DNA from: Tetracentron sinense | Lineage: Eukaryota > Streptophyta > Magnoliopsida > Trochodendrales > Trochodendraceae | DNA length: 64,000 bases | Assembly: GCA_015143295.1 (NCBI GenBank) | Contig: CM026560.1 | Coordinates: 7,070,501 to 7,134,500, forward strand | Direction: 5' to 3' | Shown: in pieces, positions 1 through 63,329 of the stretch | Layout: every line of letters starts with the position of its first letter | Position numbering within the stretch: the first letter of the stretch is position 1 | The notes under the pieces: generated by a model | What the model saw: only the letters and a program-made list of their open reading frames with translations | Told to the model about the DNA's origin: nothing | Databases searched by the model: none | Position numbers and translations under genes: made by a program

Positions 1-48
1 AAGGTCCATGTAGTAGAAAGAGGGTTTTGCGGCAGAAACAGGGGAGCA

Positions 49-275
49 CAGATCGCTCGGTGATAACACCGATCGATCACTCCAAAACCGATCACTTACT
101 CTAGACCCCGATCGCTCGGTCAACTAGTGATCGCTCGGTATCTATCAACTGGTCAAAGATTTTGTATGGAAAAAAATTTCAGATAGGGTGTTTTCAACCG
201 ATCTCTCAATCAAAACACTGATAGCTCGATAAGCCACCGATTGCTCAGTCCTGACCACCGATCGATCGGTTATAT
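49..275. repeat. Palindrome array GATCGATC-type in U3 of LTR A
   Basis: About ten degenerate copies of a palindromic 12-14-mer around ACCGATCGATCGGT (variants with CGCTCGGT) are spaced about 10-30 bp apart directly upstream of the TATA box at 326-335. The same block occurs at the equivalent place in LTR B and, in reverse orientation, in LTR C. Confidence 0.8.
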
Positions 276-325
276 CCAGTTTTGCTTCATTCAGGGTGTT
301 TAAGTCTTTAAACCACCACCCTTGC

Positions 326-335
326 CTATAAAAGG
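326..335 (+). promoter_or_regulatory. LTR A TATA box
   Basis: The string ctataaaagg lies in the context CCTTGCCTATAAAAGGC. This context recurs in LTRs B and C and in similar form in H. It is followed by a purine-rich leader, as expected for the U3/R border of an LTR. Confidence 0.6.
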
Positions 336-576
336 CCCCAACTCGTGCCTAAGGGTTTCAGAAACCCATAGGGCATATTTTGAGAGAGTTTGAAAGGAGA
401 AGAAAGGGGAAAGCTAGGGTGTTGCTCATGCTTGAAGAGAAGATCAAGATCTTCCCTTCTTTGGTGTTCTCCATCTAAAAGACTCGAGGTTCTCACTTGT
501 TCTAAGCCTTTGGAATCGAATTCATCAATTTTACCAAGGTAGATACATTCTACTACCAAACTTGTGATAATACTAG

Positions 577-2762
577 TGAAAGTATGCCTCTTTTTAGTTT
601 TAGAAAAACAGTTCTTGGGGGGCATACATTGAATCCCAAGATCTGACTAAGATTCTAATTGATTTTATTCAATAAAGGTAGGAATAAAATTCACCTTTGC
701 GACTTTGAAATTGTTAAGTCAAATCCACGTTAGAATAATACTCGCAAAACTTCACAAGTGTCAAGTCTCCTGTCGATTTACACGAACCTTCTTTTTCCTT
801 TAAAGCTTTCTCTAATGGAAGCTAATGGCCCTTCCAAATTTTCAGCTCTAGGATTCTTGAATAAAAGATCTAATCTTTATTGATCAAGAACCTTTCTTGA
901 TGAACAAGATGAATTCTTTCTTTTCCTCTAGATCCAATCAAGAAGACAAAAGAAGAGAGAGATGGGTGTGACTGTACACCTCAAGGAGAGATAGGAGAGG
1001 GCATGAGGTTTGAGGAGAGGGGAGAAGTTTCCAAATCTGGAAAATTTTGGAAAATTTTCTTATATCCAAAGCCTTGGACATCCACCCCTTTTATAGGCTT
1101 CATTGGTTGCTTGCAACCAAAGTTTCCTAATCCTTATCCAATAAGGATTCCTCAATTAGTTTCCTATTTGGTTTCTCCATAATTAATTAGGAATAATCAA
1201 AATAGAAACTAATCTCATCCATTTGTGTCCAACTAATCTTATCCTTATCCTAATCCAATTAGGATTCCTTGATTAGCAAGAAACTAATAGACTCCTTGTC
1301 CAACAAGGAATCTTTAATTAGTAACTAACTCTAATTAACTAACTAACCTTATCCAATAAGGATATTAGTTATTAGAAACTAATTAAATTAATAACAATTA
1401 TTATTCCTCCTTGAAGTGGGCATCCCACCCTAGGTGGGTCCCATCCACACGCCCCTAGGGTTCCAAACCCCTATTGGTCACTTGAATTATTCTTTTATAA
1501 TAATTTCCAATGGTCCTACCCATTGGGTTTTTCACATCGAATGTGATTCCACCTTTTAGAGCTTCACTATACCATATAGTGATTACTTAGAGAAATTAAT
1601 TAATTTAATTATAAATTAAATTAAATACTTTAAGAAGGTCATTGTGTGTGGGATCTAAAGGGATCTCCTATTTCCGGTTGTGGGACCAAGTACTTCACCT
1701 TTTTGGTTGAAGCATTGTTACTAGGAAACACCTTTCCTATACTCCATTAGGATTATAGAATTTTATCTATATCCCTGGACTTCCACCAATCACAATTAAT
1801 GTCCATTAACATAATGTGATTAACCTCCAGAAATTAGAGAATTGCTTGTAAGTACCATCTCACAATATATTTACAAATAAATCCTTCCACATTCTGATAT
1901 CACTTGTAAGCTTTCGGGATTGGAACAATTCCACTGTCTTAGTCCCTAGCTTATGAATAGAACTCTTTCTCATGATTACTTTTCATTGAACTGAACCTTC
2001 AAAACACTTTTGAAGAAACATTAGAAAAGAATTGACATATATATATATATATACTTTTCTATATTAAAAATATCAATTTCGATAAAAACCATTTTACCGA
2101 AAAGCACCAGTACTGGATTTAACAGTTCAGTTCAACAAGTATCACCTTGATATCATTATCTCCAATTAAGGAGTTGTGGATTCCTTATGGAGTTTATACA
2201 CACTTCTCCAAACATTGTGTACATGACACAATGTACCCGGAGTTAGTCCTGTGTATTGGACATTGCCGATTGGCACATCAAAGCCATATAGACAGATGTC
2301 TGAGCAGATGTTAACCTCTCAGGTCTAAGGACAATTTGTCAAATGGGTAACCCTAATACAATCTGACAGTGTATTCCATAGGGTATCCATTAGTGACCCC
2401 GTTCAGTATTATGTACTTGCTACATATACTCACATGTTAGTCAAGAGTCACCACTCTCTGTGAATGAGATTCATCACACTATCTCATAGAACTACACATG
2501 TGCAAGCCAAGATGAAGTATGGCGCCCAACCAGTACTCTAGAGGCTTCGAACAATATTAGGTTTACAAGGAACCGGAAAATCATATCTCCTCGCAACCTT
2601 TGCATGATTTTACTACAATGTTACCTATGGAACTTTATATGTACATCATATGAGATAATAATTAATATAAATACCCTTTATAGTTGGTTGTGTGAATATG
2701 ATGCTTGTCTAATCAACATAGAAAAGTCTTTTATTGGCTTTCGAGGGCATATATGTCCAACA
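577..2762 (-). repeat. LARD1 3' LTR
   Basis: This is the left copy of the 2186-bp direct repeat and starts with TGAAAGTATGCC on plus. A TATA-like box (minus CCTATAAAAGG) lies at about 1087-1097. Upstream of it on minus (1100-1370) are repeated interrupted palindromes, for example ggttgc-tt-gcaacc at 1105-1118 and aatccttat-cca-ataaggatt at 1129-1149. An AT dinucleotide run lies near 2038-2051. Confidence 0.9.
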
Positions 2763-2773
2763 ATCTCCCACTT
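2763..2773 (-). other. LARD1 polypurine tract
   Basis: On minus this reads AAGTGGGAGAT directly before the LTR start TGTTGG. Such a tract primes plus-strand DNA synthesis and fixes the element's orientation. Confidence 0.75.
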
Positions 2774-5700
2774 GCACTCTAAGCCAATTAGATGTAATGC
2801 CCATATTCTCAGTGATGTTTCTCAAACACCAATTGAGACATAACTTAATATGTATGGGTCTGTCATGTCTGCTTTACCACAACTATTGTAATGATGCAAT
2901 AACACTTGCAACTCTTACAAATTTATTATCAATAACCATAGTCTTAAAAGACTAAACAAAAATGATACTGTCTAACAGTCATTTTCAGAAGTTAACATGC
3001 TTGTGCTTTACCATTATGCAATGCTCCGGACTAATCTGACCAATATCTTATCACATCAACATGTGATGAATATCCGGTCTAGTACAAGTATATTTTCTCA
3101 TGATATCATATATCTAAGAGAAAGAGATTCCATCCCATGAAGGTAGAAACTCTTTTCTTGGAATCTTACTTGCACAAAAACATGATTGTTATTGGGAGAA
3201 TAACAATATCATTTTCCTTTTGTCTCTAAACCATTTAGGACTAAGAAAACATGATGTCAAAGTTTTTGTCCTTCATTGTAAAATTGCTTGATCAAATCTA
3301 AGAGAAGAATAATATTCATACTTCATTCATAATGAAAAGAATATTATCTTTGCATAGAGTCAGGAAAGTAATTATGCTCCCACTAACCAATTTGCACACA
3401 AAGGATACTTTCATTCTTAGATGAAAATCAAACAGTTTGATTACTTAATCAGAATAAAAGTTAGTCCAACTATAGATTCTGGGACCTGTGGGTTCTAGTG
3501 TATTATTTAGGCATAGTGAGAGTAGAGAGTTGATCTCTATCAATTCTCATAGTTATTGGTCTATTGGGCTTCCGCTTCTAGAACAATTCTAGATTCAGTG
3601 TCTCTACTAGGAAACTTATATTCCTGTTTACAAATATCTTTTGTTATCCAGGAATAGAGACTAAATGTCTCTAATGCGAATCCCAAGCTCATCTTCTATC
3701 AAATCATATCTAATAAAATTCGATTTAACAACACCATCATGCAATGGTTTGTTCTGGGAATTATCTGAGACAAGATGTAATGAGAGTAAATTATGAAATT
3801 TCTATTAAGAGGTACTCTTCTCAATCATGGAAGACTTACCTAGCTATTTCTTTATTTCAGTGCGGAATTCCTTGAACTTTTCAAAGAATGTGAAATAAAG
3901 TTAGCTACCTCTTAATGGAAGATTCATATGGTTACGATCATCAAACTTTTGTCCCATTCCTAAGTAGAAGTTTTATCCACTCAGATTTCTCATTCTCCTT
4001 AACAAATATGCAACTATTGCACTTATGCAAGATCATACCAAGCATTAGGAGCTGGAGGTTCCAACAATTAAGTTGGACTTGATGAGTATACAAGCTGGAC
4101 AATCCTTTCAAAGGTTTGTCCTGTATCCAATGACCAATTGCTTCACTATGAAGCACAATCCTTATACTTTCCTTTCTTCTCAGAAGAGCCTTTGTCCATA
4201 CTACTAGAATACCTTTCGAATAGAAAATCTTGGATTTCTTTCCTTTGCATAAATGCTCGGGATTAAGAAAATCCAATTCTTTTGAACATCTTTGCAAGTA
4301 GCATTGAACTTTTCAAAGGTTCTTAGCCATGTGCAACATGTGGGATTTCAGACAATCTGATTTCCTACTTGTTCAACATAACCATATTAAAGGACTCCGG
4401 GAGTTTGTCGAGGATCATATCCTCTAATCCCATAAATTTATCTCAATTTATCTCAGCACCAAGAATTGGGATTTATGAATCCAATGATCTCTATCATATT
4501 CTTTGTGACTAGGTTTCCCTAGTCAACTTGGTGTCCACTTGTCCTTTTATATAGTAAGCTGTCTAGCAGCCCTATTGTATTCTGTAAACATCTCATATAA
4601 GATTTAACATTAATAGTAATAACTTGGACAATTCTTTAGATGGTAAGCACAAACTTGAGAGTCTTTTTCCATTCCAAACACTTTGAATTGGTCAAGAGAT
4701 TCTCATTAAAGTCTTGGTAAGGTGGTTATAGAATGACATGACAATAAAACATACATCATAATATTTCACACATAATAATATCATTAGATCAGAGCTTTCG
4801 ATCTTTGATGATATTGCTCATCATTCAGTCAAATTTCATAGACCCCTCATTCTATAAAATTAGGAAATATGTTACTTCATATATCTGATGAGCATTGGGT
4901 GCCTTATAATACACATGCAATCTTCCATGCTAGGATAGTACCACACATGCACTACAAGGTGGATAGTAACTATCAATCACTGAACATCTCATGCATAACT
5001 CCTTATGTAAATCAGTGATTCCCAATTTTCTTGTGACCTCCAAGGATAACATGACTGTCACTTGTCAACCGTCATGGTCTTTGGTTAAGTGAAACCCATT
5101 ATTCTCGGTTGTCATATGATCAAGTAGGAATATGACCCCATGCTAGTTGACACTCCCTATCAGGCCATACACATTCCTATCTACTATAGAAATAAAACAC
5201 TAGGAGTTTAATTTAGACTGAATTATGTCCGATTCCTATCAGAGAGACAAGACTCAGGCTAATTAATTCCTAGTCTTATTGATAATGAAAGGTCATAGGG
5301 CAACATTATCCTATATGATAGATTAGCCCATTTAATTCACTTAATATTTTTCTTGAGGGAAAACAGAATATTATGAACAAATTATACATCTAATGCATTT
5401 ATCAAAAGCATTCATAATATTTATCATTGCATCACATGCATAGAATAATATACAAATATCATCACATGATAATAAATCAAATTTCGTTTTAATTAGATCA
5501 AACTAATTCCAATGAACTCCCACTAGCCCCAGAAATCTTAATGGATCTAATCCAAGGGTACAAAGGTTATTTTTTAACATCAGTGGACTTTAGATGGTTC
5601 ATTCATCCATATGATGGACCATTGGTCATACCAAGCACCATGGGCCCAGAATAACAATTATAAAGTGTCCATGTGCATCACTAAAGCCCATAAGTCAAAA

Positions 5701-8169
5701 TGGACTATATTACCCTTTAATTCTCTACGAATTATTCTTAGCACATTAGGGTTCATCAACCCTAAGTCTAAAAGAAATTATGGGATTCTTTAAACAACTC
5801 TCTAAGACCTCTACTAGGGTCTATAAGTGTCACTCAAGCACTTCCCATAATCGTGAATATTGTTAGCTTACATCTATGTCAATTAAGGCACAATTATCTC
5901 ATAATCATGCAAGTAACATATTCCACGTATAAATTTCAACATAAACTACATGCATCACGTCCAAAAGGGCTATAATAATGTGTTTTATTTAAACACAAAC
6001 TTTTTATGTTTGAACAAAACACATATTGTGGGGTTTGATCCAATTATCCAAAATTTGCACAAAAACGATAATCACATTATCACAAGGGTTATGAACTTTT
6101 CTAAGCAACTAAGAGCTATAACAAATCATCACATGAAATACATAATATAACCGCACAATGGGTCCACATGATCATGCTATCTTAGAAATCCTACAACTAC
6201 TCTTGTAGAACGCCTTCCAAGATTTATTCTCCATGTGATCACCATCATCTTCGATCTTCAATATGATTTCTCTATAGAGAAAAACCAGCAACTCCTAATA
6301 CTAAGATTACATCATATTCAAAATAAGAAACCTTGAGAAACCACCCAAAATAGGGTGCTCAAGGGTAGTACAACTCATAAGAAGAAAGAGAAGAGAATAG
6401 AGAGAGAAGAAGACATGATCATGGAACCCATCTACCATTCAACAAGAATATATATTAATAATTCATCAACTATGAATAATAACATGACATGACAAATTAC
6501 TTAGAAAGTCCATAACCTCGACAAGGGTTTTGCTAACCTTAGGGAAACTCTTTCCCATATAGTTAAGGCCTCTATTAACATTGAATAGAAAAACCCTAGA
6601 GCAAAGAAAGCAAGCATGTCTAGAATGAATTCTTAGGGTTTTTAGATCATCATTAAAAGAAAATAATTTTCCTTTAATGCTTGGAAAATCATTAAGAGAA
6701 ACAATTTCTCTAAGATTTAATCTAACCCTAAAATTCATCCTCACATTCCTCAATTGATAAACAAATAGAAAACACCATATTAAATTCGACTAGGCTAGGG
6801 ATCTAATCTCTTCCATATTATTTTGATCTAATAACTATTAAAAGACCAAAATAAAAATCAGAAATTTGCTAATTTTTAATATCACTTTATATTGATTCCA
6901 AAAATAAATTCAAAATCAATAATAGATGAATTCAAAATTTTCCATAATAGCCAATTGCTTTAGGGATTATTTGATTTAACAATTAAATAAAATAATACCC
7001 TAAACACTAGTATTAAATGTCCATAAAATAATTGATCTCTATCAATTAAAAGTCACTTGAGATAAAATCCTGTATCTCAACCAATGACATTTATGTAATT
7101 ACTTGATTCACTATTAATCAAATAAAAACTTATAAATACTATATAGCCGGTAATTCTGAGCACATGTAATTGATCCAAATCAACTACAATAATTATGGTA
7201 TTATTCCCATAAACTTTTTAGGGAACCATAAATGATATCATAATTAACATTTAATTAAATGATAGCTCGTGGACTCGAAGCATATAATTAAACAATTTAA
7301 TTAAATCTCAGCCCGTGCTCTCGAATCAAATAATTAAACTATTTAATTAATTGATAGCCCATTAAATGATTTAATAGCATCCTATGCTCTCAAATCAAAT
7401 AATGGAATTTAGGAAAAATTTGAAAGCCTCTTGGAAAATTAATTTAGAAAACTCTTTTTCCCGCTTTAGATTTTCGACTCAAGTTTTGACCCTCAAAACG
7501 ATTGATTCTGGAAAAAATTTCTTCACAAAAGTTGTAGATCTTTTCGACGGCTTTGAAAAGATGTACTGACGGACCTAAATCAGATTTACGGTCACAAAGC
7601 TATGGCCGAAATACCGAAACTATACCGATCCTTCTAATCAAATACAAATCCGAAAATCCCTGAATCAATTTTAATCGAAATAAGCTTTAATCTCTAAGAA
7701 AACTTAAGCAAGGGTGTCTAACACCATGAGATTTATTAATTAACATTTAATAAATAAAATCTCATCTATATTTGCTTGCCAAAATATCAATTGGTATCTA
7801 AGTGGTATATATCAAAGGGAAAACTTGCCCAGGGCTCACAAGAATAAATTAAACAATTTAATTTAATATAAAAAGGATCTCTAAATCCTTAAAGGGCTTT
7901 AACCAAATTTATATCTCTATATACCTATCCCTAATAGAATTAAGAGAGGTTTTGAAATCATCCAAAACTGAAATTAGCATCACACTAATTTCTAAGGGCT
8001 TGATTATTCCCTCTATAACTAGAGGAGAATCCCTTAACCCGACCAATGATTATCTAATCATCAAGAATCTAGAAGATTGATTCCTTAGGGTAACCAAAAT
8101 TCATAGGGGAGGCAATCTTGATATAAATCTTGATTAAACTCAATAAAATCAAAGAGAAGCATAGCCAAG
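2774..8169 (-). other. LARD1 interior without recognisable coding
   Basis: About 5.4 kb of AT-rich sequence. I find no retroelement protein motif such as a zinc knuckle, DSG, YVDD or an HH-CC pattern on either strand. The longest frame (118 codons, minus, 3941-4297) resembles nothing I know. The part next to the primer site (about 7430-7680) matches a segment that lies inside LTR G at 14660-14790 and 20170-20260. Confidence 0.7.
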
Positions 8170-8181
8170 GCTCTGATACCA
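8170..8181 (-). other. LARD1 primer binding site (tRNA-iMet type)
   Basis: Minus reads TGGTATCAGAGC, complementary to the 3' end of plant initiator methionine tRNA. It is one base from the inner edge of the LTR that starts at 8183. Confidence 0.9.
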
Positions 8182-8182
8182 C

Positions 8183-10368
8183 TGAAAGTATGCCTCTTTT
8201 TAGTTTTAGAAAAACAGTTCTTGGGGGGCATACATCGAATCCCAAGATTTGACTAAGATTCAAATTGATTTTATTCAATGAAGGTAGGAATAACATTCAC
8301 CTTTGCGACTTTGAAATTGTTAAGTCAAATCCACGTTAGAATAGTACTCGCAAAACTTCACAAGTGTCAAGTCTCCTGTCGATTTACACGAACCTTCTTT
8401 TTCCTTTAAAGCTTTCTCTAATGGAAGCTAATGGCCCTTCCAAATTTCCAGCTCTAGGAATCTTGAATAAAAGATCCAATCTTTATTGATCAAGAACCTT
8501 TTTTGATGAACAAGATGAATTCTTTCTTTTCCTCAAGATCCAATCAAGAAGACAAAAGAAGAGAGAGATGGGTGTGACCGTACACCTCAAGGAGAGAGAG
8601 GGGAGGGCATGAGGTTTGAGGAGAGGGGAGAAGTTTCCAAATCTGAAAAATTTTGGAAAATTTTCTTATATCCAAAGCCTTGGACGTCCACCCCTTTTAT
8701 AGGCTTCATTGGTTGCTTGCAACCAAAGTTTCCTAATCCTTATCCAATAAGGATTCCTCAATTAGTTTCCTATTTGGTTTCTCCATAATTAATTAGGAAT
8801 AATCAAAATAGAAACTAATCTCATCCATTTGTATCCAACTAATCTTATCCTTATCCTAATCCAATTAGAATTCCTTGATTAACAAGAAACTAATAGACTC
8901 CTTGTCCAACAAGGAATCTTTAATTAGTAACTAACTCTAACTAACTAACTAATCTTATCCAATAAGGATATTAGTATTAGAAACTAATTAAAATAATAAC
9001 AATTATTATTCCTCCTTGAAGTGGGCATCCCACCCTAGGTGGGTCCCATCCACACGCCCCTAGGGTTCCAAACCCCTATTGGTCACTTGAATTATTCTTT
9101 TATAATAATTCCCAATGGGTCCTACTCATTGGGTTTTTCACATCGAATGTGATTCCACCTGTTAGAGCTTCACTATACCATATAGTGATTACTTAGAGAA
9201 ATTAATTAATTTAATTATAAATTAAATTAAATACTTTAAGAAGGTCATTGTGTGTGGGATCTAAAGGGATTTCCTATTTCCCGTTGTGGGACCAAGTACT
9301 TCACCTTTTTGGTTGAAGCATTGTTACTAGGAAACACCTTTCCTATACTCCATTAGGATTATAGAATTTTATCTATATGCCTGGACTTCCACCAATCACA
9401 ATTAATGTCCATTAACACAATGTGATTAACCTCCATTAGAGAATTGCTTGTAAGTACCATCTCACAATATATTTACAAATAAATCCTTCCACATTCCGAT
9501 ATCACTTGTAAGCTTCCGGGATTGGAACAATTCCACTGTCTTTGTCCCTAGCTTATGAATAGAACTCTTTCTCATGATTACTTTTCATTGAACTGAACCT
9601 CCAAAACACTTTTGAAGAAGCATTAGAAAAGAACTGACATATATATATATATATATACATACTTTTCCATATTAAAAATATCAACTTCGATAAAAACCAT
9701 TTTACCGAAAAGCACCAGTACTGGATTTAACAGTTCAGTTCAACAAGTATCACCTTGATATCATTATCTCCAATTAAGGAGTTGTGGATTCCTTATTGAG
9801 TGTTTACACACTTCTCCAAACATTGTGTAGATGACACAACGCATCCGGAGTTAGTCCTGTGTATTGGACATTGCCGATTGGCACATCAAAGCCATATAAA
9901 CAGATGTCTGAGAAGATGTTAACCCCTCAGGTCTAAGGACAATTTGTCAAATGGATAACCCTAATACAATCTGACAGTGTATTCCATAGGGTATCCACTA
10001 GTGACCCCGTTCAGTATTATGTACTTGCTACATATACTCACATGTTAGTCGAGAGTCACCACTTTCTGTGAATGAGATTCATCACACTATCTCATAGAAC
10101 TACACATGTGCAAGCCATGATGAAGTACGACGCCCAACCAGTACACTAGAGGCTTCGAACAATATTAGGTTTACAAGGAACCGGAAAATCATATCTCCTC
10201 GCAACCTGCATGATTTTCCTACAATGTTACCTATGGAACTTTATGTCTACATTATATGAGACAATAATTAATATAAATACCCTTTATAGTTGGTTGTGTG
10301 AATATGATGCTTGTCTAATCAACATAGAAAAGTCTTTTATTGGCTTTCGAGGGCATATATGTCCAACA
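8183..10368 (-). repeat. LARD1 5' LTR
   Basis: This is the right copy of the LARD1 LTR, 2186 bp, colinear with 577-2762 and differing by scattered substitutions and small indels. It is followed by the target duplication actag at 10369-10373. Confidence 0.9.
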
Positions 10369-10373
10369 ACTAG

Positions 10374-11461
10374 TTCACCACATGATGTCCTCCTCATTCT
10401 ATGCTAAGAATATTAGGTTGGTGTGGTATGTGATGTTGATTTTATACTTGGATGTAAACTATCATTATTAGGCACTCTATGTGTTTGGTTTAAATCCTCT
10501 AAGGGCTTTTATGTTTAAATATGCTATTATTCTCATATGTTTTGCATGTCTCGCATGAACCGAATTTTTATGGATTTCTCAAAGTTATAAAAAAAGGTTT
10601 TTGAATAAGTGACTCATATGATGATTTTAAGAAACCCCATGATATTGTCTAAGATCGGTTCACAAGCTCCAAGGATCATATTAAACTCACAAGGAACTCT
10701 ATGATAAGGTCTAAGATCGATGTACAAGCTCCAAGGATCATAAATGTAAATGTTCTAAGATCTCAATGGTTTTACTCTATGGTTTTGCTCTACGGTATTG
10801 CTCCAAGGCTCTATGGATCATAAATGACTCTAAGGAACTCTATGAACTTAACACGACTCAAAGAACTCACAAGGCTATGATTATCACAAGACTTACACTA
10901 TTTTGGTTTTTGGATGTCATTACACGTGTTATTTCACGGTTTCTAAGCTTTGATATGTTTTAAGGATTTCAGTCTCTATGTTTTGTATGCTTCCATGATA
11001 TTATTGCTTTGTTGTTAGTAGTATGTATACGCTGAGTATTACACGCTCAGCCGATATTTGTTATCATCGGTAGGTGCATGGGTTCTTTTCGCCTTGTGTG
11101 GTTCGGAGCCTTGGGTAGATGAAGAATACTACGACCCGGAGCCTTCTATGGACCACTACCAGGATGATGGATCACTAGATAGGCGGCCCGACTTTGACTT
11201 CTGCTAACTATGTTAGGAAGAGAAGATATTTTGTGTATTTTGAGAGTGGAACTTGTCCACTCCATATTTTGGATATATATTTTGTTGGTTCAGACTTGAG
11301 CCGAATGATAGGAGCATTTGATTATAAATTGTTTCCGCTATGTATAACTTGCGTACTCTGATAGGTTGATATGTGTGCCTTATGTGTCATACAGGAGGGT
11401 ATGATACGGCGGTCACGAGCTAGAGTATCCTAACTCTTAGGGGGTATTTTGGGTCGCGACA
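10374..11461 (+). mobile_element. LTR A, right part
   Basis: This continues LTR A beyond LARD1 and is colinear with 16690-17853 of LTR B, ending in the shared terminus GGGTCGCGACA. It contains a degenerate tandem repeat of about 75 bp (10630-10750), the conserved CTGAG/CTCAG hairpin (11030-11050) and a conserved small open frame. No PBS follows, so this is a solo LTR or the 3' end of an element. Confidence 0.75.
11022..11207 (+). CDS. LTR-embedded small frame, copy A (acidic PWV peptide)
   Basis: This is an open frame of 61 codons ending in TAA. The conserved part follows a splice-acceptor-like TAG at 11071-11073 and contains LCGSEPWVDEEYYDPEP and the C-terminal end DFDFC. LTR B carries the same peptide in the same place with no indel. 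My hand count of the aligned codons from the EPWV Glu to the stop gives 12 synonymous and 6 replacement differences, unlike neutral decay. There is no ATG upstream of the conserved part, so it is either a 3' exon joined by splicing or part of a longer leader frame. I do not recognise the peptide and assign no function. Confidence 0.45.
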   Translation, partial: YVYAEYYTLSRYLLSSVGAWVLFALCGSEPWVDEEYYDPEPSMDHYQDDGSLDRRPDFDFC

Positions 11462-14179: not shown

Positions 14180-15254
14180 TACAGCTTTGCTCCAAAGGAA
14201 GTTAATGGCCCTTCCAATCAATGTTCTTTAATCTTTTCTTCTTTTCTTTGATCGAAAAACCTTTCTTGATCAATTCCATTCAAACTCTATGATATTTTAT
14301 TCTTTTCTTGAATGCAAGATCCTTTCATAAAGATTGGTTCTAATATTATTTAAGATTGGTTTTGATATTATTCAAGATCAAAAAAAAAATCGAGAGAAGA
14401 AAGAAGAAGGGAGGGTTGGCCGTACAACCCAAGAGGGAGAAGGATGGGCGTCAAATAAGGGGGGGAGAGAGAAAACGTGGGAGAGAGAGAGAGGAGATCT
14501 CTTATGGTGGACTTTCCACCCTATGGGGTCTATTTATAGACCCTTTGATTGCTAACTTGTAGATCAAGTTAAACTCCTCTTTCTAAATTATAATCCAATT
14601 AGAATCCTCTTTTTTGCATATTAAGTTAGAGATAAACTCCATTTTCTAATTCTATTATGATTATCCCGCTTTGGATTTTCGATTGAGGTTTTGTCATTGA
14701 AAATGATTGATTTTGGAAAAGCTTTCTTCACGAAAGTTGTAGATATTTTCAATGGCTTCGAAATGATATATACTTACGGACCAAAATCGGTGTCACGACC
14801 CGACTTAAACTTAACATTTCACTAATGAAATGTAAGAGTAATCCGTCCGTGAGATCATTTTTATTATAGTTTGCGGAAGCGTAAATTATCAAGGGAATTT
14901 AAAACATTTTAAACCCTTATCTATCCATACGCAATAGCCATCATAACCATGTCTATAATTAAAGTTAAGGTTTATATAACCAACTTAATTACATCAAAAT
15001 GAACATATCACAAAATGTAACAGCATAGTCAAAAGCGACTCCGTCTTTTTTCGAACGTCACTTTCAAGTTGTTCTTTCACTGATCATCTGGCGACATAAA
15101 AAGTCAGTGAGCTATGAAGCCCAATAAGAATATTCCATAATATTATGCTGAACAATAAGTTAGAATAAGCATAATAAAACTTTTAGATAACAACTTTATT
15201 ACAAGAATATAATATTAAACCATTTACTTTATACATCTTTTACTTTGGATCTGA

Positions 15255-15835
15255 TTTATCTTAACTCTGTCTCTCAAGTTGATCATTGAAAGGTACCTCT
15301 TTAGACTCACCCCATCTTGGAGTTATCATTAACCCCTTATGAGTTTTTGTCTTAGGCTCACCCCGTCTTGGAGTTTTCATTAACCCCTCATGAGTTTTTG
15401 CCTTAGGCTCACCCCGTCTTAAAGTTTTCATTAACCTCTCATGAGTTTTTGCCAAATGATATCCCTTTGCCTTACCACTATCTTGAGACCTTTTTAAGAT
15501 AAACAATTTTTATCTTTCCTTTATCTTTTCTTTTATCTTCCAGACTTATCTTAATTTCGTCTCTCAAGATGATTACTGCAAGGTACCTCTTTAGACTCAC
15601 CCTGTCTTGGAGTTTTCATTAACCCCTCATGAGTTTTTGTCTTAGACTCACCCCGTCTTGGAGTTATCATTAACCCCTCATGAGTTTTTGGCTTTGGCTC
15701 ACCCTGTCTTAGAATTTTCATTAACCCCTCATGAGTTTTTGCCAACTGGTATCCATTTGCCTTACCACTATCTTGAGGCCTTTTTAAGATACGGGTATTT
15801 ATCTTTTCCTTGTTTTCTCTTTAAGACATTATAAG
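15255..15835. repeat. Higher-order tandem repeat in LTR H
   Basis: A 51-bp unit (core caccccgtcttggagtt...taacccctcatgag) is repeated three times at 15301-15455 and three times at 15591-15745. Each triplet sits in a roughly 290-bp block that is itself duplicated in tandem. The small minus-strand frames here merely translate the repeat. Confidence 0.85.
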
Positions 15836-16207
15836 ATAATAATTTCATATAAATCACAACATTATGATTATACACTTTTCATTCTAATTATCTTTATTAT
15901 AGTTATCTCATAACTATAATCTTATAATTTAGAATAATTCTTTTTCATATTTCAAATACATCATTTCTCTTATCATAAATTAGAATGTAATATACTGTAG
16001 CACCCCGGACTTTTTCATCCTTAATGAATAGCACATTCGTAGCTAATTGGCCGTTTTTGTAGTCTAATTAATAAATAAGGGAGAAATCGGAAATTCCAAA
16101 ACGTCAGAAATGTTCGTTTTCGAAAGACGGATCCAACGCAAGTTGAATCGTCGAAATCCGACGAGCGAGTCAAAAGATATGGTCAAAACAGTCCAGACAT
16201 AACAGGG

Positions 16208-16395
16208 CAGCGATCGCTCGGTCATTACCTGCAATCGATCGGTCAACCACCGATCGCTCGATAGCTGTCGCACGGTTAACTTTTTTGTATGGGGAAAAAT
16301 TCCAGAGAGTGTGTTTTTGACCGATCTCTCGTTCATAACACCGATCGACCGGTAAGCCACCGATTGCTCGGTCCATACCACCGATCGATCGGTCA
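16208..16395. repeat. Palindrome array in U3 of LTR B
   Basis: Repeated cgatcgctcggt, gatcgatcggt and related near-palindromes lie about 50-240 bp upstream of the TATA box at 16449, as in LTR A. Confidence 0.8.
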
Positions 16396-16448
16396 TACGC
16401 AGATTTTCTTCATTAAGGGTGTTTAAGACTTTAACCATCACCCTTTGC

Positions 16449-16458
16449 CTATAAAAGG
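16449..16458 (+). promoter_or_regulatory. LTR B TATA box
   Basis: The string ctataaaagg lies in the same CCTTTGCCTATAAAAGG context as in LTR A. It is followed by gggtttcacaaaccc and a purine-rich leader. Confidence 0.6.
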
Positions 16459-17408
16459 GCTGGGTTCGTGCCTTAGGGTTTCACAAACCCTTTGTGCATT
16501 ATTTTGAGGGATTTGAAGAAGAGAAGAAGGAGAGGACTTGGTGATCGTTCAAGCTTGTGGAAGATCAAGTTCTTCCTTTCCATTTGGTGTTTTCCAACCA
16601 CGAACTCACTGTTCTTGCTTGTTCCAACCATTGGGAGTCAAACTCATTGATTTCTCTAAGGTAGATACACTCTACTACAATCTTGCAATCCTACTAGTCA
16701 CTAACTATGATTCTTCTTATCTACGCCCTATCTATGTGTATTGATTTTATGTATGGAAAGGTGTGATTATATATATACTTGGATGAAGGTTACTATTATG
16801 ATGCACTCTAAGTGTTTGATAAAATACCTCTAAGGGATTCTATGCTTAAATACGATGATTTCTCTCATTAAGTGCATATGCTCGCATGTCTCGCATAAAC
16901 CGATGGTTTCCATGGATTTCTCCAAGTACAAACAAAGGTTTTTCACGAAAAGACGAATAATGAATGATTCTAAGTAACTCTATGATTTCTCTAAGATCGT
17001 TTCACAAGCTCTAAGGATCATACCATGCTCACAAGGAAACTCTATGATAATGCTCTAAGATCGTCTCACAAGCTCCACGGATCACAATGAAATGCTATAA
17101 GATCTCTAAGGTTATGCTCTATGGAAATGCTCTAAGGTTATTGCTCTATGCTCTATGTCTCTACGGATCACAATGACTCTAAGTAATTCCATGAACTCAT
17201 AAGAACTCATAAGGCTATGATTATCGATTGACTCACACGGTTACAGTTTTGGTTTTTGAATATTATCTCGCATACGTTTTCACGGTTTCCATGCTTTAAG
17301 GAAATTACGGATTTCATTCTCCATGTCTTGTATGCTCTATGCCTAACCGCTTTATTGTTATTAGTTTGTACACACTGAGTATTCCATGCTTAGTCGATAT
17401 TGTTATGA

Positions 17409-17549
17409 TCGGCAGGTGCTCGGGTTCCATTTGATTTGTGTGGCGAAGAACCTTGGGTCGAGGAAGAGTACCGTGACCCGGAGCCTTCCATGGATCACTA
17501 TCATGACGATGGTGCTTTAGATAGGAGTCGTGACTTCGATTTCTGTTGA
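17409..17549 (+). CDS. LTR-embedded small frame, copy B (acidic PWV peptide)
   Basis: This is an open frame of 46 codons ending in TGA at 17547-17549. It overlaps a splice-acceptor-like CAG at 17412-17414, then reads FDLCGEEPWVEEEYRDPEP and ends DFDFC. The peptide, its frame and the stop position match copy A, although the stop codons differ (TAA against TGA). The composition is strongly acidic. There is no ATG before the conserved core. In a complete element this would lie in the R-U5 leader, upstream of gag. The function is unknown. Confidence 0.45.
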   Translation, partial: SAGARVPFDLCGEEPWVEEEYRDPEPSMDHYHDDGALDRSRDFDFC

Positions 17550-18129
17550 TCGACCGACTTAGAACTTGTGTCATTTTGTTATGTGAGTGTGGGGTTTGTC
17601 CACTCCACTTTTGGGTTTCTTACACATGTATACTTGTTGGTTCTTACTTGAGCCAAGTTATAGGAGTATTCATTTTGCTTCCGCTATGTTTAGTATTTTA
17701 TTTTCCGCTGTGCATTGTATTTCGTTTCCGCTATGTATATTCAGGTACTCTGATAGGTTTCCACGTGTGCCTTATGTATCATACTGGAGGTATGATATGG
17801 CGGTCACGAGTCAAGGTATCCTTAACTCCTAGGGGGTATTTTGGGTCGCGACATATACGTAGAAAATATAACAATAAAGTATCATTACTTTATATTTTTA
17901 GCACTTTACCATAGCATCACATTTATTATTTTTAGCATAGTATTCTTTTACTATTTTTCAGCATTCCAACATAGCATCAACATAGTATTATTTTACTATT
18001 TTCCAACATATCCACATAATATCATCAAATAATAATTTATTATTCAGAATATAATAGAATATTCATTTCTTCTCATAGTATTTATTTCGAAAATACTAAC
18101 CTCTATTCTAAATCGTTATTTAGAATATT

Positions 18130-22022: not shown

Positions 22023-24865
22023 TTAAATGTCACACCCCTTCAAATAGAGTAGACCCCATTGGACAAAGTGGACCCCACAAGGCAAGGCTCTACTGGGAAC
22101 TTGTCCAGTGGTAAATATATCTTTGATCATGAACCTGCTAAAGCATTGTATTTATACAAATTTCTGAAACATGAGACATTCTTCTTTAATCCCAAAAGTC
22201 ATGGGCTAAATTATACTCATATATGTACTTATATATATACATCTCAAACGAGTAAGTGGATAGACATCCACTATCATAATAGTTTGAAATTTACAAGAGT
22301 CTCATGAGGGTGCTAGGTCTAGAAGTCTAGAAACAAAATGCAACCTAGATTGAGCCGACGCAAAGATGACTCCGATGCACGATCTCAAAAAAAAAACTCA
22401 GAGGACTTCTCCTTATCCAGAAACGGCTACTATTCTGAAAATGGGAGCAATAACAGGGTGAGACATGGCTCAGTAAATGAATGACCACTATATGTTCATA
22501 AAACATAGATATTTAGACATAATAGTTTTTGGAAAAATTCGGCAGAATCTCCTCTAAGAATAGAGGGTTCCAAAATCTTATAACCTGTAAGACCTTTTCA
22601 TAAGAGAATTCATTTGAATAAAACATAATATAATCCTCACACTTCTAAAATTTTCATTTACAATATTTACAACCATCAATAATTTCCTCCATACTTCATA
22701 GTGAGTCCAAATTTCAACAAAATCATTAAGTAGAATTCCCTTACGTTTCATATATAAATTCATACTGGTTGCATGTCTGCATACCTGGGCACTAACCCTA
22801 TGAGGAGCCCTATTCCTAGTCCATAATGTCTCTCATCTGGGCGCTTACGTTATATGTAGCCCTATTCCCAGTGCATACTCTTTCTACCGAGGTGCTTACA
22901 TTTTACGTAGGCCTATTTGAAGGGAATCCAAATAAAAAATTATGCTGAAAACTGGATCCTGAGGATCTTTACAGCATTGAAAGCAACTAATACTATCTAC
23001 AAGTTTTAGTCATATTACCTCGGTGAATGATGTTCACCGGTGAAGCAAAAACCAACTCGAACCGTCAGAACTCTTTGTAGAGATTTCTCGAAGATATACT
23101 CAAAGCTCGATCCTTGTTCTTCACTATCCCCGTGAAGCCTTCGAATATTTTCTTGGCTTTGAGGAAACAAAGAGAAGAGGAAGAGACGTTGTTGTAGACT
23201 ATCACCCAAAAACTAAGGGTTCAAAACCCTAATCCTTTAATCAACTTAGAACAATCCTTATGGGCTCACGAAAATTAAGGGGAGTGAAAACTCGCTCTAG
23301 AGGCTCACGGTTTTGGAGAGGGGAAAAAAATCGATAATGAATTCTTCTTCATGTTTTTGGGGTGTTGGGTATTATATAGATTTTGAATAAATTCAAATCC
23401 TAATCCAATTAGGAAACCTCCTTATTAAAGAGAGTTTCTACATAATAGACTTCTAATTAATTAGTTGTTACAAACCTTCTAATTTGGGATTCATTTCTTA
23501 AAAGGATTCCATAATTAAAGGGGTTGTAACTAATTCCTAGATTCTAGGAATCCCAACAACTTCCTAAGTTTTAGGAATCCTAATCCAATTAGGAAATCTC
23601 CAAAGGGGTGGGCGTGAGCTTCAAAGGGGCGTGAGCCAGAGGAGCTTAATCTCCAAGTTTTGACTAAGGTCAAACTTTATCTCTTTTATTTCTTAATTTC
23701 CAAGATTGGAATCTAATCCCATAAATTTAGGAGTTAATATTTAATGATTATTTAACCAACACAATCCTATCCAATTAGGAAACCCTAAGTGGGCGCCCCA
23801 CCCATAAGATTTTATCCATGGGCTTAGGCCCACCTATAAGGTCCACTTATGCTTGGGTTTTATGGATATGGGTCAAACCCATTTCCCCTTATCTTGTGTT
23901 AATTAGATAAAAATTATTATTATCTTTTAATTTAAATTAACAATTAATTTAAACTATAGATTAACTTTTAATTTATTTAAAAGTGATTATCATTTAATCT
24001 TTTTATTAATTGATTAACATTTAATCAATTAAATGAGCTTGTATTTCTAATGTGAGCATCTCCACAGATTGCTCTGGGACATTGTAACCCTTGCTTACCC
24101 AATGTTATCCCATTGACCTTAAATAGGAATTACATCGGAATTGTAAGTGACGTGAGATATCCATGTTCCCAGTGTAAGAACATTAACCAATACGGATCCC
24201 GCCATATGAACTTTTTAATTCAGTTGACCCTTCCAATTACATTATCCCTAATGGGCCTTTAAGATTATTTATACTATCTAACTCATAGCTCATTGCACAT
24301 CATCCAGGTTTCCAAGACTTCTGATTAAGCCATGAGAAACATTTTCTCATGTAAAACATTTTGATAAAAACCTTTTTATAAGTATAATATATTTTAATAA
24401 AAATATATTTCTAACTTATTTTATTTCAAAATTACCTACGCATGATCTAAGCTTAATCGATTGTCTTACCTGGAACTTGGATAATCTCTTCAAATTAATG
24501 AGCATAGATTTTTTGTTCGAAATTCATCATGACTCAAACAGCTTTCTGACTATCCAACTATCACTGTCGCAACCCAAAACTCACCCTATGAGTTAGAGTA
24601 AATCTTGGACGACTTGTCATGACCTACATGACCTGCTTGACAAACCATCCTGCAAAACACTCGAAGCATATACAAAAGAGGATAAAATAGCGGAAGCATA
24701 AACTGACATGGCACAACGGAAGTCTAACAAAAAACCCTATTTGTATATATATAGTCCAAGTTTATACAAAAGAAAAAATCAAAATGAAGAAGGTGCGGAC
24801 ATGCCCACCAAAATACATGGGTATAATTCTCTCATGCTCACCCACACTCACTTAGGATCTATCAC

Positions 24866-25018
24866 CTAATAATATCCCTCTACCTGAGGCTCATCCGTAG
24901 GGACTTCCTCAATGTACTCCTCCACCCATGGGCCAGGAGCACAAATGTCAAAAGGAGCAGCTGGTCCGCTATCACCTACCGACATGAGACGTATGGCTGA
25001 GCATGGAATACTCAGCGG
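24866..25018 (-). CDS. LTR-embedded small frame, copy C
   Basis: Minus frame of about 50 codons ending in TAG. After an acceptor-like GGTAG it reads PFDICAPGPWVEEYIEEVP, matching PFDLCGEEPWVEEEY of copy B. The C-terminal part has diverged and ends EGYY. An in-frame ATG exists just before the conserved part (MSVGD). It is acidic and of unknown function. Confidence 0.4.
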   Translation of the reverse strand, partial: PLSIPCSAIRLMSVGDSGPAAPFDICAPGPWVEEYIEEVPTDEPQVEGYY

Positions 25019-25324
25019 GTACCAAATACTAACCAACAGTCATATCATAATAATAACATAATAAAGTAGGATGTTGTTCATATAATTAACAGGAAAGCAA
25101 ATAGTTTATATTTCATGCTTGCATCACATCAAAGTCAGAAAAACTCTTGAAATCATTATGTGCTTGACTTGACTTAAAATACACTTTTCTAAAAAACTTG
25201 TCTTGTCATGTTCTGTCTTGCTTGTTTTGTGGGGTCATGCTTGTCTTGTCATGCATGTCATGTTGTGTTCTTGCTTGTACTCATGCTTGCTTGCTTGGAA
25301 ACTTAACATGCTCATGTAGCTTGT

Positions 25325-25465
25325 GAGATGCACTTGTGAGGGAGGGTGGTATAGAACCCCCTCTTTTAATGAGATGTACTTACGAGGGAGGGTGGTATAG
25401 AACCCCCTCTTTTGATGAGATGCACTTGCGAGGGAGGGTGGTATAGAACCCCTTCTACAATCTTG
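25325..25465. repeat. 46-bp tandem repeat in LTR C
   Basis: The unit gagatgcacttgcgaggg...ggtggtatagaacccc is repeated about 3.1 times with an exact 46-bp period. Confidence 0.9.
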
Positions 25466-26357
25466 AAGGGAGGGAAGTGTAAACTTCCTCATTTGCAATG
25501 CTTGTTCTTGTTCTTGTCAAAAACGAGGCAAAACATATCTTAAGATCTGCCCTACCTCTATTTACCAACCCTTATGTTTGGCCTTGTCATGGTGTTCGTA
25601 AATTGAGAATAAAACCCTTGTCTTGAAAAACACCGATAAACCATGTCATGCATGCCGTGCTCGTGAAGTCGTGTACATGCTATAGCTTAGAAATAAACGT
25701 GACATTTGAAATTCAAGAATACATGAAATAGCATTCATTTCAACACAAAATATTCATGCCGTTATAAAAAGCGAATAATCACACTATCATAAACCCTAGA
25801 AATTTCCGTATGCCTTAAATCATGTTTTTCTTGATTAATGATTCATCCAATTCATCCATTGTGTGTTCATTATTTAGTGAAATACCCTCCCCATTTCATT
25901 CATCACAACATCCACATGGCATCCATCACCCAACATCCATCTCCACACATACAATCCATCTCATTAATATACTTAGAAATTGGGGAAAAACCTTAAAAAG
26001 GAAAGAAAAGAGGAAGATGAATGACTAGGAGGGTAGCATAGGGTACTGACCTTGAATAGGGGAAGAAAACCCTTCAACACGTGCGTGGGATTGCTGTCGA
26101 GCTTGGGGAATGTGCTCCTCATGTACTTTGCCTTGGATTTGAAGAATCCAAGCCTTTGGAATGATCTAGGGTTCTTAAACCCTTGATTTCTCTCAAGTTG
26201 AAACCCTAGGTTAAAAACCCCTTTTTCTTCTCTCACTCTCTCTCAAAATATTCCTAAGTGTTGTGAATGGGGACCCATGGCTCGAGCAAGCCCTTATAGG
26301 CAAGGGTGTAACGCCCAAAATACAAAAAAGCCCTTAATGAAATTTCTGCAAAACGCG

Positions 26358-26550
26358 AAAGACCGAGCGATCAGTGGTTATGACTAAGCGATCGGTCGCT
26401 TACCGAGCGATCGGTGTTTCTGACCAAGCTCTCGGTTAAAAATCACTTCTTTGGAATTTTTCCCCATACAAAATTTTGGACCAGTCGACAGATACCGATC
26501 GATTGGTTTTGGACCGATCGATCGCTACTTTGGACCGAGCGATCGGTGAT
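26358..26550. repeat. Palindrome array in U3 of LTR C
   Basis: Repeated accgagcgatcggt, ccgatcgattggt and ccgatcgatcgct units form the reverse-orientation counterpart of the arrays in LTRs A and B, again immediately upstream (on minus) of the TATA box. Confidence 0.8.
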
Positions 26551-27368
26551 TTGTAAATTTTGACACCAAGTCCATTTTTCACTCAATCCACTAGTTGGAC
26601 TTATCCCACTTCTATTCTAACCTATTCTAAACATGACTAGGACCTTTCAAAGGCTATGACACATTAATAAATATTTTATTTAATTATTTTATAGCATTCT
26701 TGCAAAATTCTTAAAGGTTTCCAAATTCTCATGTTATGGAAAATGAAGATTACAAAGCATAATGCCTTGACACACATTCCAAGACATATACAAAAGTTTC
26801 GGGGCTCTACAGTCACTGTATCGTAATCCCTAAGGTAGAGAATACTTTGGTGGACTCAAAACAGTCAGATTACTACTCAGTTATAAATGAACTCATCAGA
26901 TTTAAGGATTATTGAAACTGTTCAGTGTGAATGAGAGACCAAATATCTGATAGTATGTTTATGCAAGAGGTCTCTCATTGCATGCAATTAGTCAGTGTAC
27001 ATTTAAGCACCCATATGCTGATGTGTAGTCTCCACTACAATAGTTCGAGATAGAACTACATCTCAACTATTGAGAACATCTTAGCATTGTGACAGCCATA
27101 TAAGTGAAGTGCCCAGCTTAACCCATAGCTATGACTTTATAAGGTATAAGGAACTGGAAAACTATATTTGCCTGTGATAGTCCCATCACATAGCTTTCCT
27201 ACAATATATTCTATGGACCTTTATCGATATCTCATATCGTATAGATCATCTTATGATCATGGTCAATTACCCATAATGAATACACAATAGATAAAAAAGA
27301 AGTCTCTATTAATCAAATTAATAAGAATCTTGCAATCTAAATGATTTTTCTGAGCATAATGTCTAACA

Positions 27369-57815: not shown

Positions 57816-58420
57816 GAGATAAGTGAAGCTTGATGCTCATAAAGAACTCATAAGTCTCACAAGACTAATAAAGTCTCACAAGACTAATAAGATTTGTAAG
57901 GAACTCATAAGTACCAACTGACTCATAAGAAAAATGATCATAAGAAAAGTTTATAAGAAATGAGAAATAAAATTGTAAGAAAAGAAAAGAAAATCTATAA
58001 GAAATGAAATGCAAGCTCACAAGAAAAGAAGTAAGAAATGTAAAACATGAAAGGATTTTAATATACTATGAGCAGGTATGAGCACTAATATCTGTTTCTA
58101 AGAATAGGAGAGGAGGCTAGTATACTATGACTAGGTACATGTACTAGCATCTGTCTCAAAGTAAGTACAAGATAAGTGAAATGAATGATCTCATAAGCTA
58201 AGAATCTCATAAGATGCATAAGGAACTTAGAAGATATTTGAAATATATATTGTTAAAGCATGAACTTAAAATATGATTTAAAGTATGATTTTCGAGATTA
58301 TGCATTTGTTATCTTGTCTTAACTTCTGCACTCTGATCAAGTATATGTTATGATGTACTGTATCATGTATCACATATTAATGTATTATAACATGATTAGT
58401 TAGTAGTTTGTATACGCTGA

Positions 58421-58534
58421 GTATGCAATGCTCAGCCGAACTATTATCGTGCTACGGAACCAAGGGTCCAACAGGAGCTTGCTGGGGATCAGCATGCAGA
58501 TAATAGGGGCCTCGACATGTGGCCTTATGGTTGA
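58421..58534 (+). CDS. LTR-embedded small frame, copy K (diverged)
   Basis: 37 codons to a TGA, in register with the hairpin. It reads NAQPNYY, then ATEPRVQQELAGDQ, and ends MWPYG. EPRV stands where the other copies have EPWV or GPWV. The acidic tail is shorter, so this copy is diverged and possibly decayed. Confidence 0.3.
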   Translation, partial: VCNAQPNYYRATEPRVQQELAGDQHADNRGLDMWPYG

Positions 58535-59265: not shown

Positions 59266-59929
59266 TGTAACAGCAAATTTCGATCGCCTCACCTTGGTGT
59301 GAGGCTATTGAACTTCACTGTTCAAACGTCCTCCTTTAATGGAGTTTATTATTTTATGTGGGAAAACCATTTCCGGCATAGGTAAACCTATGCCATTAAT
59401 TACACTCTCTTTTGAGAGAGATACCTTTGATTAAAAAAAAGAGAGAAAGAGAGACAAGCATAACATTTTTTATTTGATAAATGGGTGTCAAATGCCCCAT
59501 TTCGGCGTTTACAGATGCCTCAAAAGAGGTCTTTCAAAGTAAAAAGGGAGAGAGAGAAAGAGGTAGGCATTTTGGCCTACCTTGTAGCTTCTATTAGAGC
59601 TCTGGTTCTTTTTGATTGGAGTTCTATCTCTGGGGTTTCTTCTTTGGATTTCAGGTTCTCCAAAAATCGGGGTCCCTTGCACTGTACTCCAACTCCCACT
59701 TTCATATCGTGGGGTTACTGGGGAAGTGGTTTCACAACCACCTCCTCTAATTGCCTTCTTCTTTGTGAAGAGGACATCTGTCCTCTTCTTGGGAGAGTGA
59801 GGACTACCCCTCACCCTCATTTCCTGGATCGTGGGTGGGTAGTGGGTATTTTACCCATTACTGGACCGCCAAATGATAGTACCATGTGGCCTTTAGCCCT
59901 TTTTGTTTGAGGCAGCAAGGGACCTCTTT

Positions 59930-63164: not shown

Positions 63165-63329
63165 CTAAGAGGTGTAGCCGCCCAAGTCTCCGGCTCCCTC
63201 CTCAGAAGGCTCACCTTCACCTCCTTCCTCTGCGTATGTTTCCTCAACCCACGGCTCCGCCGTGTACTCCTGCTCTAAACCTGCCAAGACAAAGTCCGGC
63301 TGAGTACAAAGGTACTCAGTGTATATAAA
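63165..63329 (-). CDS. LTR-embedded small frame, right-edge copy
   Basis: Minus open frame of about 54 codons ending in TAG. It runs through the hairpin (YTEYLCTQPDF), crosses an acceptor-like GGCAG as Ala-Gly, then reads AEPWVEETYAEEGGEGEP and ends GGYTS. PWVEE and the acidic character match copies A, B and C although the flanking DNA is very different. Confidence 0.4.
   Translation of the reverse strand, partial: FIYTEYLCTQPDFVLAGLEQEYTAEPWVEETYAEEGGEGEPSEEGAGDLGGYTS

Follow-up and report, generated by a model that had tools for sequence, protein, structure and literature searches.

Can the long terminal repeat (LTR) of a plant retrotransposon carry a protein-coding exon, and which messenger would use it? 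LTRs are commonly taken as non-coding when insertion ages and neutral rates are estimated. The question was raised by a repeat-rich stretch of the Tetracentron sinense genome (contig CM026560.1, positions 7,070,501 to 7,134,500; G000:C10:7070501-7134500), 64,000 nucleotides long and called the window here, which holds a receptor-kinase-like gene, copia frames and nested LTRs. A preliminary description had noticed that five of its LTRs, named A, B, C, K and R (the right-edge copy), have an open frame for an acidic peptide at one and the same position, and all five frames were found where it had placed them (Table 1). We followed the frame through the window and through the 1.16 Gb genome, whose copies carry L-numbers. 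The LTR frame is almost certainly a real, constrained coding sequence, and it most plausibly serves as an alternative last exon of the gag gene of a chromovirus.

A, B, C and R encode homologous acidic peptides with a PWVEE core. As claimed before, A and B share frame and stop position without an indel. They differ at 34 of 129 bases over 43 amino-acid codons, with 6, 5 and 23 changes at codon positions 1, 2 and 3, respectively; 18 codons are identical, 15 differ synonymously and 10 are replaced. From the Glu of EPWV on, our recount gave the same 12 synonymous and 6 replacement differences as the preliminary description, the stop codon (TAA/TGA) being among the 12. For the two window copies, the proportion of synonymous differences (pS) was 0.89 and that of replacement differences (pN) 0.12. 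When the same transitions and transversions were placed randomly 20,000 times, 7,460 outcomes were stop-free, with a mean of 21.2 replacements and a minimum of 14, and none had as few as 10. Scanned along its full length and on either strand, the A/B LTR alignment has its sole strong third-position excess here (P 4.5e-5, uncorrected; next separate stretch 0.016). The exon lies within the longest gap-free block of the LTR 3' half (173 columns, the next of 25 blocks having 99), and a single gap-free block of 326 columns in the 5' half was without third-position signal.

Of the window's 1,448 stop-to-stop segments of at least 25 amino acids, ranks 1 to 4 went to the A, B, C and R frames against both the A and the B query. 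The peptide had been described as shared by all five LTRs, which holds for these four and is not significant for K: in Smith-Waterman shuffle tests with a script of our own, shuffled sequences equalled the K score in 94 to 811 of 2,000 trials. The membership of K rests on its hairpin and position, the peptide similarity being weak. The exon is thus common to four diverged families of the window, and also to C-like variants (L125, L128, L131) and at least one further peptide type (L127, L129). Its product has 35-43 residues, with 9-14 Asp and Glu and 0-4 Lys and Arg (Gly counted). Pfam gave no match for the A, B, C and R peptides, PDB sequences none for the B peptide, and Rfam none in the window at the gathering threshold. 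No peptide relatives were found in viral contigs (A and A/B queries) or in prokaryote genome contigs (A query), hairpin-pattern searches of the same two kinds of contigs gave no relatives, and five peptide strings had no match in the searched literature.

For the comparison across the genome, 39 A copies and 30 R copies (including the window's own) were gathered by U5 DNA queries, blind to the frame, and 30 C copies were chosen by protein similarity. Against B, the 39 A copies and the window copy had a median pS of 0.84 and pN of 0.12, with a pN/pS of 0.14 (range 0.10-0.53). Together with the codon pattern above, this bears out the earlier proposal that the LTR DNA encodes a peptide, and between families the dN/dS comparison suggested at that time came out on the side of constraint. 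Within families pN/pS was 0.45 in A, 0.43 in R and 0.29 in C, the last value being biased low because the C copies were picked via protein similarity; controls ranged from 0.45 to 1.41. The acceptor AG introduced below was kept in 33/39 A, 30/30 R and 27/30 C copies, and the frame was open in 24/39, 26/30 and 28/30. Frameshifts, which the preliminary description would have counted against constraint if present in most young copies, were found in 7/39 A copies and 1/30 R copies. Since pN/pS is low between families and inserted copies decay, selection acted on the lineages that moved, as had been presumed for active source elements. In these families a part of the LTR is under codon selection, contrary to its treatment as non-coding. 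The best 150 of 25,440 candidates in a protein search with the B peptide were all identical over 44 residues, without stops, and many of these matches were paired ~7.0 kb apart.

The constraint sets in at a conserved YAG^GT (TAG in A and C, CAG in B and R; ^ marks an exon border), and the exon frame takes the base before GT as its first codon base, which is phase 1 in A, B, C, R and seven further copies (L125-L131). This acceptor position and phase recur in every one of these families and copies. Conservation of the frame does not reach upstream beyond the AG: immediately before it A and B are offset by a one-base indel, an in-frame TGA stands three codons before it in B, and no start codon for the frame is common to the families. 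The coding span of A, formerly given as 11022-11207, keeps its end at 11207 and starts at the AG at 11074 (17416 in B). Because the constraint begins at YAG^GT and the frame is lost upstream, the frame resembles a 3'-terminal exon with a splice acceptor, and we think it quite probable, from the arrangement of these sites, that it is a spliced exon. The nearest other AG lies 19-23 nt upstream of the acceptor. A hairpin, CTGAGTA...CTCAG, precedes the frame in all five LTRs, at distances to the AG of 42 (A), 41 (B), 40 (C) and 39 nt (R). Its strict pattern matches A, C, K and R only, B being one change off, and looser patterns also match three unrelated places (~22.2, 44.9 and 61.3 kb). Farther upstream, A and B have a TATA box and a donor AAG^GTAGAT, and C has a donor AAG^GTCAGT.

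The elements behind these LTRs were identified from genome copies. The B copy L009 gave Pfam matches above cut-off to Retrotrans_gag, zf-CCHC, RVP_2, RVT_1, RT_RNaseH, Integrase_H2C2 and Chromo, while rve reached 22.1 bits, under its cut-off of 32.6. With the gene order of Ty3 and a chromodomain at the integrase end, L009 is a chromovirus of the Ty3/gypsy type. The interiors of the B copies L009 and L010, the C copies L074 and L075 and the R copies L076 and L077 contain gag, or just its end, together with pol, whose end is chromodomain-like; as read by eye, this pol end is similar in C and R. Directly after the LTR, L009, L010, L074 and L075 have the primer site TGGTATCAGAGC, which we take to be that of tRNA-Met, and we likewise take their 3' end to be Tekay-like in look. 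The elements are chromoviruses, probably of the Tekay clade. In the published account of U5 ends, type A of Del has GGG at -8 to -10 and conserved positions -1, -2, -3 and -6 (PMC4029996). The LTR named D ends in GGGGTGTTACA with GGG at -8 to -10, and in A and B the GGG lies one base farther out (...GGGTCGCGACA). Pol has a stop codon of its own ahead of the 3' LTR, which makes the LTR exon something other than a simple pol tail. One copy (L011) has a B-type interior and a 3' LTR starting with TGTAGAGCCCCGAAATTTCATTTC, not with the B start, which likely reflects an LTR exchange between subfamilies.

In the A, B, C and R elements, a phase-1 intron of 135-155 nt splits gag from pol within the protease domain, in a Gly codon. 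In the family alignment gag ends in ...DDVVQG or near it, followed by 135-155 nt with stops and indels and then by the protease start. The A + T content of this intron is 64-72% (five B, C and R copies). Its donors are GCAAG^GTACGC in B and in the A copy L118, GTACAC in L120, GCAAG or GCATG^GTATGC in C, and GCAGG^GTACGT in R; its acceptors end in TCTCAG or TCTTAG, TTTCAG and ATTCAG, and one of two A copies has lost the acceptor AG. When the predicted exons were joined, residues 2-63 matched positions 4-65 of RVP_2 ungapped (E 3.7e-15). Between A and B the exons on the two sides are 86 and 83% identical without gaps, as against 72% with 13 gap columns in the intron, where the compared segment was longer than the intron by 9 nt. 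Without splicing, gag would run into short tails, different ones in B, C and R.

This intron is spliced. With the joined peptide as query, the genome yielded copies whose gag is directly continuous with pol, nine of them B-like and 98-100% identical over all 57 residues. In three copies that we read (L122-L124), the predicted intron is absent and the predicted join present, and both sides are 97.8-98.8% identical to L009; the border of the join is ambiguous by a few bases common to both ends. These intron-free copies mean that spliced RNA was occasionally reverse transcribed, and therefore that the gag-end donor works, in the phase of the LTR exon. Counted by exact patterns, and thus only among gag ends that fit them, 5,455 gag ends have the donor GTAYG and 82 are fused to pol (controls 0). 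The donors were also scored with our own script by matches to a nine-base consensus, which placed the gag-end donor among the top two of the 106 GT columns common to B, C and R, both of phase 1. An acceptor-like (T)CTCAG^GA precedes the gag ATG by 10-11 nt in B, C and R (L009 nt 430-440, L074 nt 450-459, L077 nt 109-118) and occupies the equivalent spot in the A copies L117 and L119, both of which have ATA in place of the gag ATG. This suggests a leader intron, despite which the three intron-free B copies retain the leader region upstream of gag.

From these two sets of sites we infer that the LTR acceptor is used, that it pairs with the gag donor and that the resulting tail has a role. The LTR frame would be a 3'-terminal coding exon, used in the 3' LTR copy of the full-length element, and its acceptor (YAG^GT, phase 1, ~20 nt past the hairpin) would be fed by the phase-1 donor at the gag end (CAAG^GTAYG). 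Joined to the near acceptor, this donor gives Gag-Pol; joined to the far acceptor ~5 kb downstream in the 3' LTR, it would give Gag with a conserved acidic tail, its own stop and 3' end. The predicted joins are ...GTGCAAG to GTGCTCGGG... in B and the gag end to ^GTGATAGTGG in C and ^GTTTAGAGC in R, and the tryptic peptides expected at the B junction are ...DDVVQGAR / VPFDLCGEEPWVEEEYR. The gag-LTR RNA would lose pol, the polypurine tract (PPT), U3 and the start of the R region, and would then be a pure messenger, excluded from reverse transcription. The tail could mark a Gag made in excess or a regulatory Gag isoform. We give the reading of the LTR exon as an alternative last exon fed by the gag-end donor a probability of about 0.6.

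Several observations weigh against this reading. The gag-LTR junction itself is predicted from the sites and their phase. An exact-pattern genome search for joins to the B exon (those without G at -4) found no copy that displays the LTR acceptor in use, although the model expects none for the gag-LTR join, whose absence among retrocopies would follow from an RNA that lacks the PPT, U3 and the first part of the R region and cannot complete reverse transcription. Of 20 fused gag-pol junctions read, 18 are without GT at the join; nevertheless, all seven fused elements whose 5' LTR was read (L125-L131) keep an intact LTR exon, and this exon is still constrained (L125 vs L131: 0, 1 and 7 changes at the three codon positions). 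In one fused lineage, which may have multiplied without the gag-end donor, nine or more copies share all of 57 residues. Identically spelt gag ends with an intact donor occur among the donor-bearing matches listed, so the fused copies may be fresh derivatives of intron-bearing parents. The within-family pN/pS of A and R is not cleanly under all controls. In the hairpin 38/40 cells pair, with a single compensated pair and no excess above shuffles. The ATG three codons above the acceptor, discussed below, is present in 26/30 C copies and in six of the seven further LTRs (all except L130).

There is a limited chance that the LTR acceptor is real but receives its upstream exon from a different donor, located in gag, in pol, in LTR exon 1 or in the leader that follows the primer binding site and precedes gag. 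LTR exon 1 does end in the donors named above for A, B and C, and the fused copies that lack the gag-end GT retain the exon. We rejected a peptide start in LTR exon 1, as A, B and C have no in-frame AUG there; R has an in-frame ATG before a good donor, giving MRIDSREG..., and the edge of the window truncates exon 1 of this LTR. The B leader, as read, has no open AUG frame reaching its donor. Within gag, a phase-1 GT (EG^EAxHWW) scores equal to the gag-end donor in B, C and R. This candidate was also rejected: the Gly codon is GGT in 68 of 100 listed copies and the GT is missing in 32. A genome search with exact patterns for spliced joins to the B exon, covering joins without G at -4, gave two matches. 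Neither is a spliced retrocopy; one is a truncated LTR and the other a point variant.

A free microprotein, translated in unspliced LTR RNA from the AUG three codons above the AG (ATGTCGGCAG^GT), is improbable. The C copies and further LTRs that have this ATG speak for it. However, B has its in-frame TGA at that place and cannot use such a start, and the ATG is found in only 1/39 A and 0/30 R copies. All but two of the 150 listed B copies (best 150 of 25,440) are open over just 46 amino acids, two above the exon, and the constraint begins at the AG rather than at the ATG.

More remote still is a role of the exon only within the 5' leader of a spliced genomic transcript, where it could be an upstream frame that regulates gag, or else a non-AUG start. 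The same exon does stand in the 5' LTR, downstream of the TATA box and donor, and A and B have an internal ATG in common (MDHY...DFC). The residues ahead of that ATG, the N-terminal half PFDLCGEEPWVEE, are conserved as well, the internal ATG is absent in C, R, L125-L129 and L131, and the exact-pattern genome search (joins without G at -4) found no B copy from which the putative LTR intron had been removed. That the conservation serves an RNA or DNA function with an incidental frame is hardly credible: hairpin and acceptor do adjoin the exon, but the codon pattern already contradicts it, in that changes pile up at third positions, the families have diverged with avoidance of stops and frameshifts, and Val of PWV takes all four third bases (GTA in A, GTC in B, GTG in C, GTT in R), Pro having three spellings and Trp being fixed.

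Coding sequence in an LTR has precedents outside plants. Sag of mouse mammary tumour virus and Nef of human immunodeficiency virus 1 are vertebrate retroviral accessory genes coded wholly or partly in the 3' LTR and expressed from spliced RNA, and the elements described here, like that of Sag, have a conserved coding sequence inside the LTR. We know of no similarity of the LTR peptide to Sag or Nef. Our literature search, which covered few subscription journals and no preprints, found in the texts consulted no conserved coding exon inside a plant LTR, and no description of a gag-protease intron in chromoviruses was found in the literature examined. The extra frames described for chromoviruses lie upstream of gag, in the internal region (PMC11728184, PMC7264820).

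The spliced part of the model has closer relatives. In the barley Ty1/copia element BARE1, a spliced subgenomic gag RNA encodes Gag alone (PMC3735527), and in Arabidopsis EVADE, also Ty1/copia, a short spliced Gag message (shGAG) exists beside the full-length Gag-Pol RNA (PMC8892269, PMC12786077). With these elements ours have in common a functional splice donor at the gag end, as the three intron-free copies indicate. A spliced Gag RNA separates messenger from genome in BARE1, as it may do here; BARE1 is a copia element whose abstract places no coding exon in the LTR, whereas here gag would be joined to a 3'-LTR exon. The EVADE splice is described as removing the protease and leading to a stop and a premature poly(A) site inside the element, in contrast to a tail exon in the LTR. 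CERV of Cer1, a Ty3/gypsy element of C. elegans, is similar in that gag-frame exons are spliced to a 3' exon, giving an extra protein (PMC10309623); the exon described here lies within the LTR and codes for 35-43 residues. In Ogre (Ty3/gypsy, Tat) an intron splits the polyprotein frame and partial splicing controls Pol (PMC6317226, PMC12786077). That intron is placed between GAG-PROT and the reverse transcriptase, unlike the chromovirus intron, which lies between gag and PROT, at the start of the protease domain and inside RVP_2. According to Neumann et al., Bianca and Ogre have two frames separated by a gap (PMC6317226), and a 2025 review describes introns as generally absent from plant LTR elements, with Ogre and EVADE as exceptions (PMC12786077).

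Two questions about plant Ty3/gypsy elements are open: how Gag comes to exceed Pol, and how messenger RNA is kept separate from genome RNA. Here a chromovirus group combines a demonstrably spliced gag-pol intron with a constrained LTR coding exon of matching phase. We would put at even odds the wider proposal that in a whole group of plant chromoviruses the LTR acts as a leader in the 5' copy and as an alternative last gag exon in the 3' copy, a single phase-1 donor at the gag end choosing between Gag-Pol and a tailed Gag and splicing separating messenger from genome. Two exact splice junctions and a peptide are now available as concrete predictions.

Table 1 Positions of the LTR exons and associated features in the window, and of the gag-protease intron in genome copies (^ exon border).
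Feature	Position	Strand	Details
LTR A coding exon	11074..11207	+	AG^GT, phase 1, GAWVLFALCGSEPWVDEEYYDPEPSMDHYQDDGSLDRRPDFDFC, stop TAA
LTR B coding exon	17416..17549	+	AG^GT, phase 1, GARVPFDLCGEEPWVEEEYRDPEPSMDHYHDDGALDRSRDFDFC, stop TGA
LTR C coding exon	24866..24975	-	GDSGPAAPFDICAPGPWVEEYIEEVPTDEPQVEGYY, stop
LTR R (right-edge) coding exon	63165..63280	-	GLEQEYTAEPWVEETYAEEGGEGEPSEEGAGDLGGYTS, stop
LTR K position-equivalent frame	58449..58534	+	GATEPRVQQELAGDQHADNRGLDMWPYG; acceptor AG missing, decayed; not significant as peptide
Hairpin upstream of acceptor A	11031..11051	+	GCTGAGTATTACACGCTCAGC
Hairpin upstream of acceptor B	17374..17394	+	
Hairpin upstream of acceptor C	24996..25016	-	
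Hairpin upstream of K frame	58416..58436	+	
Hairpin upstream of acceptor R	63299..63320	-	CTGAGTACCTTTGTACTCAG
Solo LTR B	15996..17854	+	TGTAGCACCCC...GGGTCGCGACA, flanks TATAC; TATA box ~16450
Solo LTR C	24564..26811	-	TGTAGAGCCCC...GGGTTGCGACA, flanks GTGAC/GTGAT
LTR A upstream piece	1..596	+	TATA box, putative donor AAG^GTAGAT at 538/539; cut by nested insertion
LTR A downstream piece	10370..11461	+	holds exon, reaches LTR end
Putative LTR intron of B	16661..17415	+	donor AAG^GTAGAT to acceptor GGCAG^GT
Gag-protease intron	L009 nt 1657-1794 (element sense)		likewise L010, L074, L075, L077, L118, L120

The insertion that cuts LTR A is a 9.8-kb LTR element (570-10369), with 2.2-kb LTRs at 570-2763 and 8176-10369 that are 96.5% alike, and it lies between ACTAG repeats. 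Solo LTR C interrupts one of two copies of a repeat (22917-27368 and 32672-34900, 92-94% alike). An LTR on the minus strand (14798-15999) has a similar build, ending in ...GGGTCGTGACA, with a CTTCCGC box and GTCGCCAG at the place of the acceptor; neither in this LTR, called S-type, nor in another on the minus strand (M, 11.5-13.9 kb) was a PWV exon seen by eye. Degenerate tandem repeats adjoin LTR R (59897-61170 and 61500-62880), the second with GTTCACAGCAAAATGC-like units. Ahead of the TATA box, A (~50-275), B (~16220-16400) and C (26330-26550, minus strand) have in common a palindrome-like CCGATCGCTCGGT unit in repeated copies.
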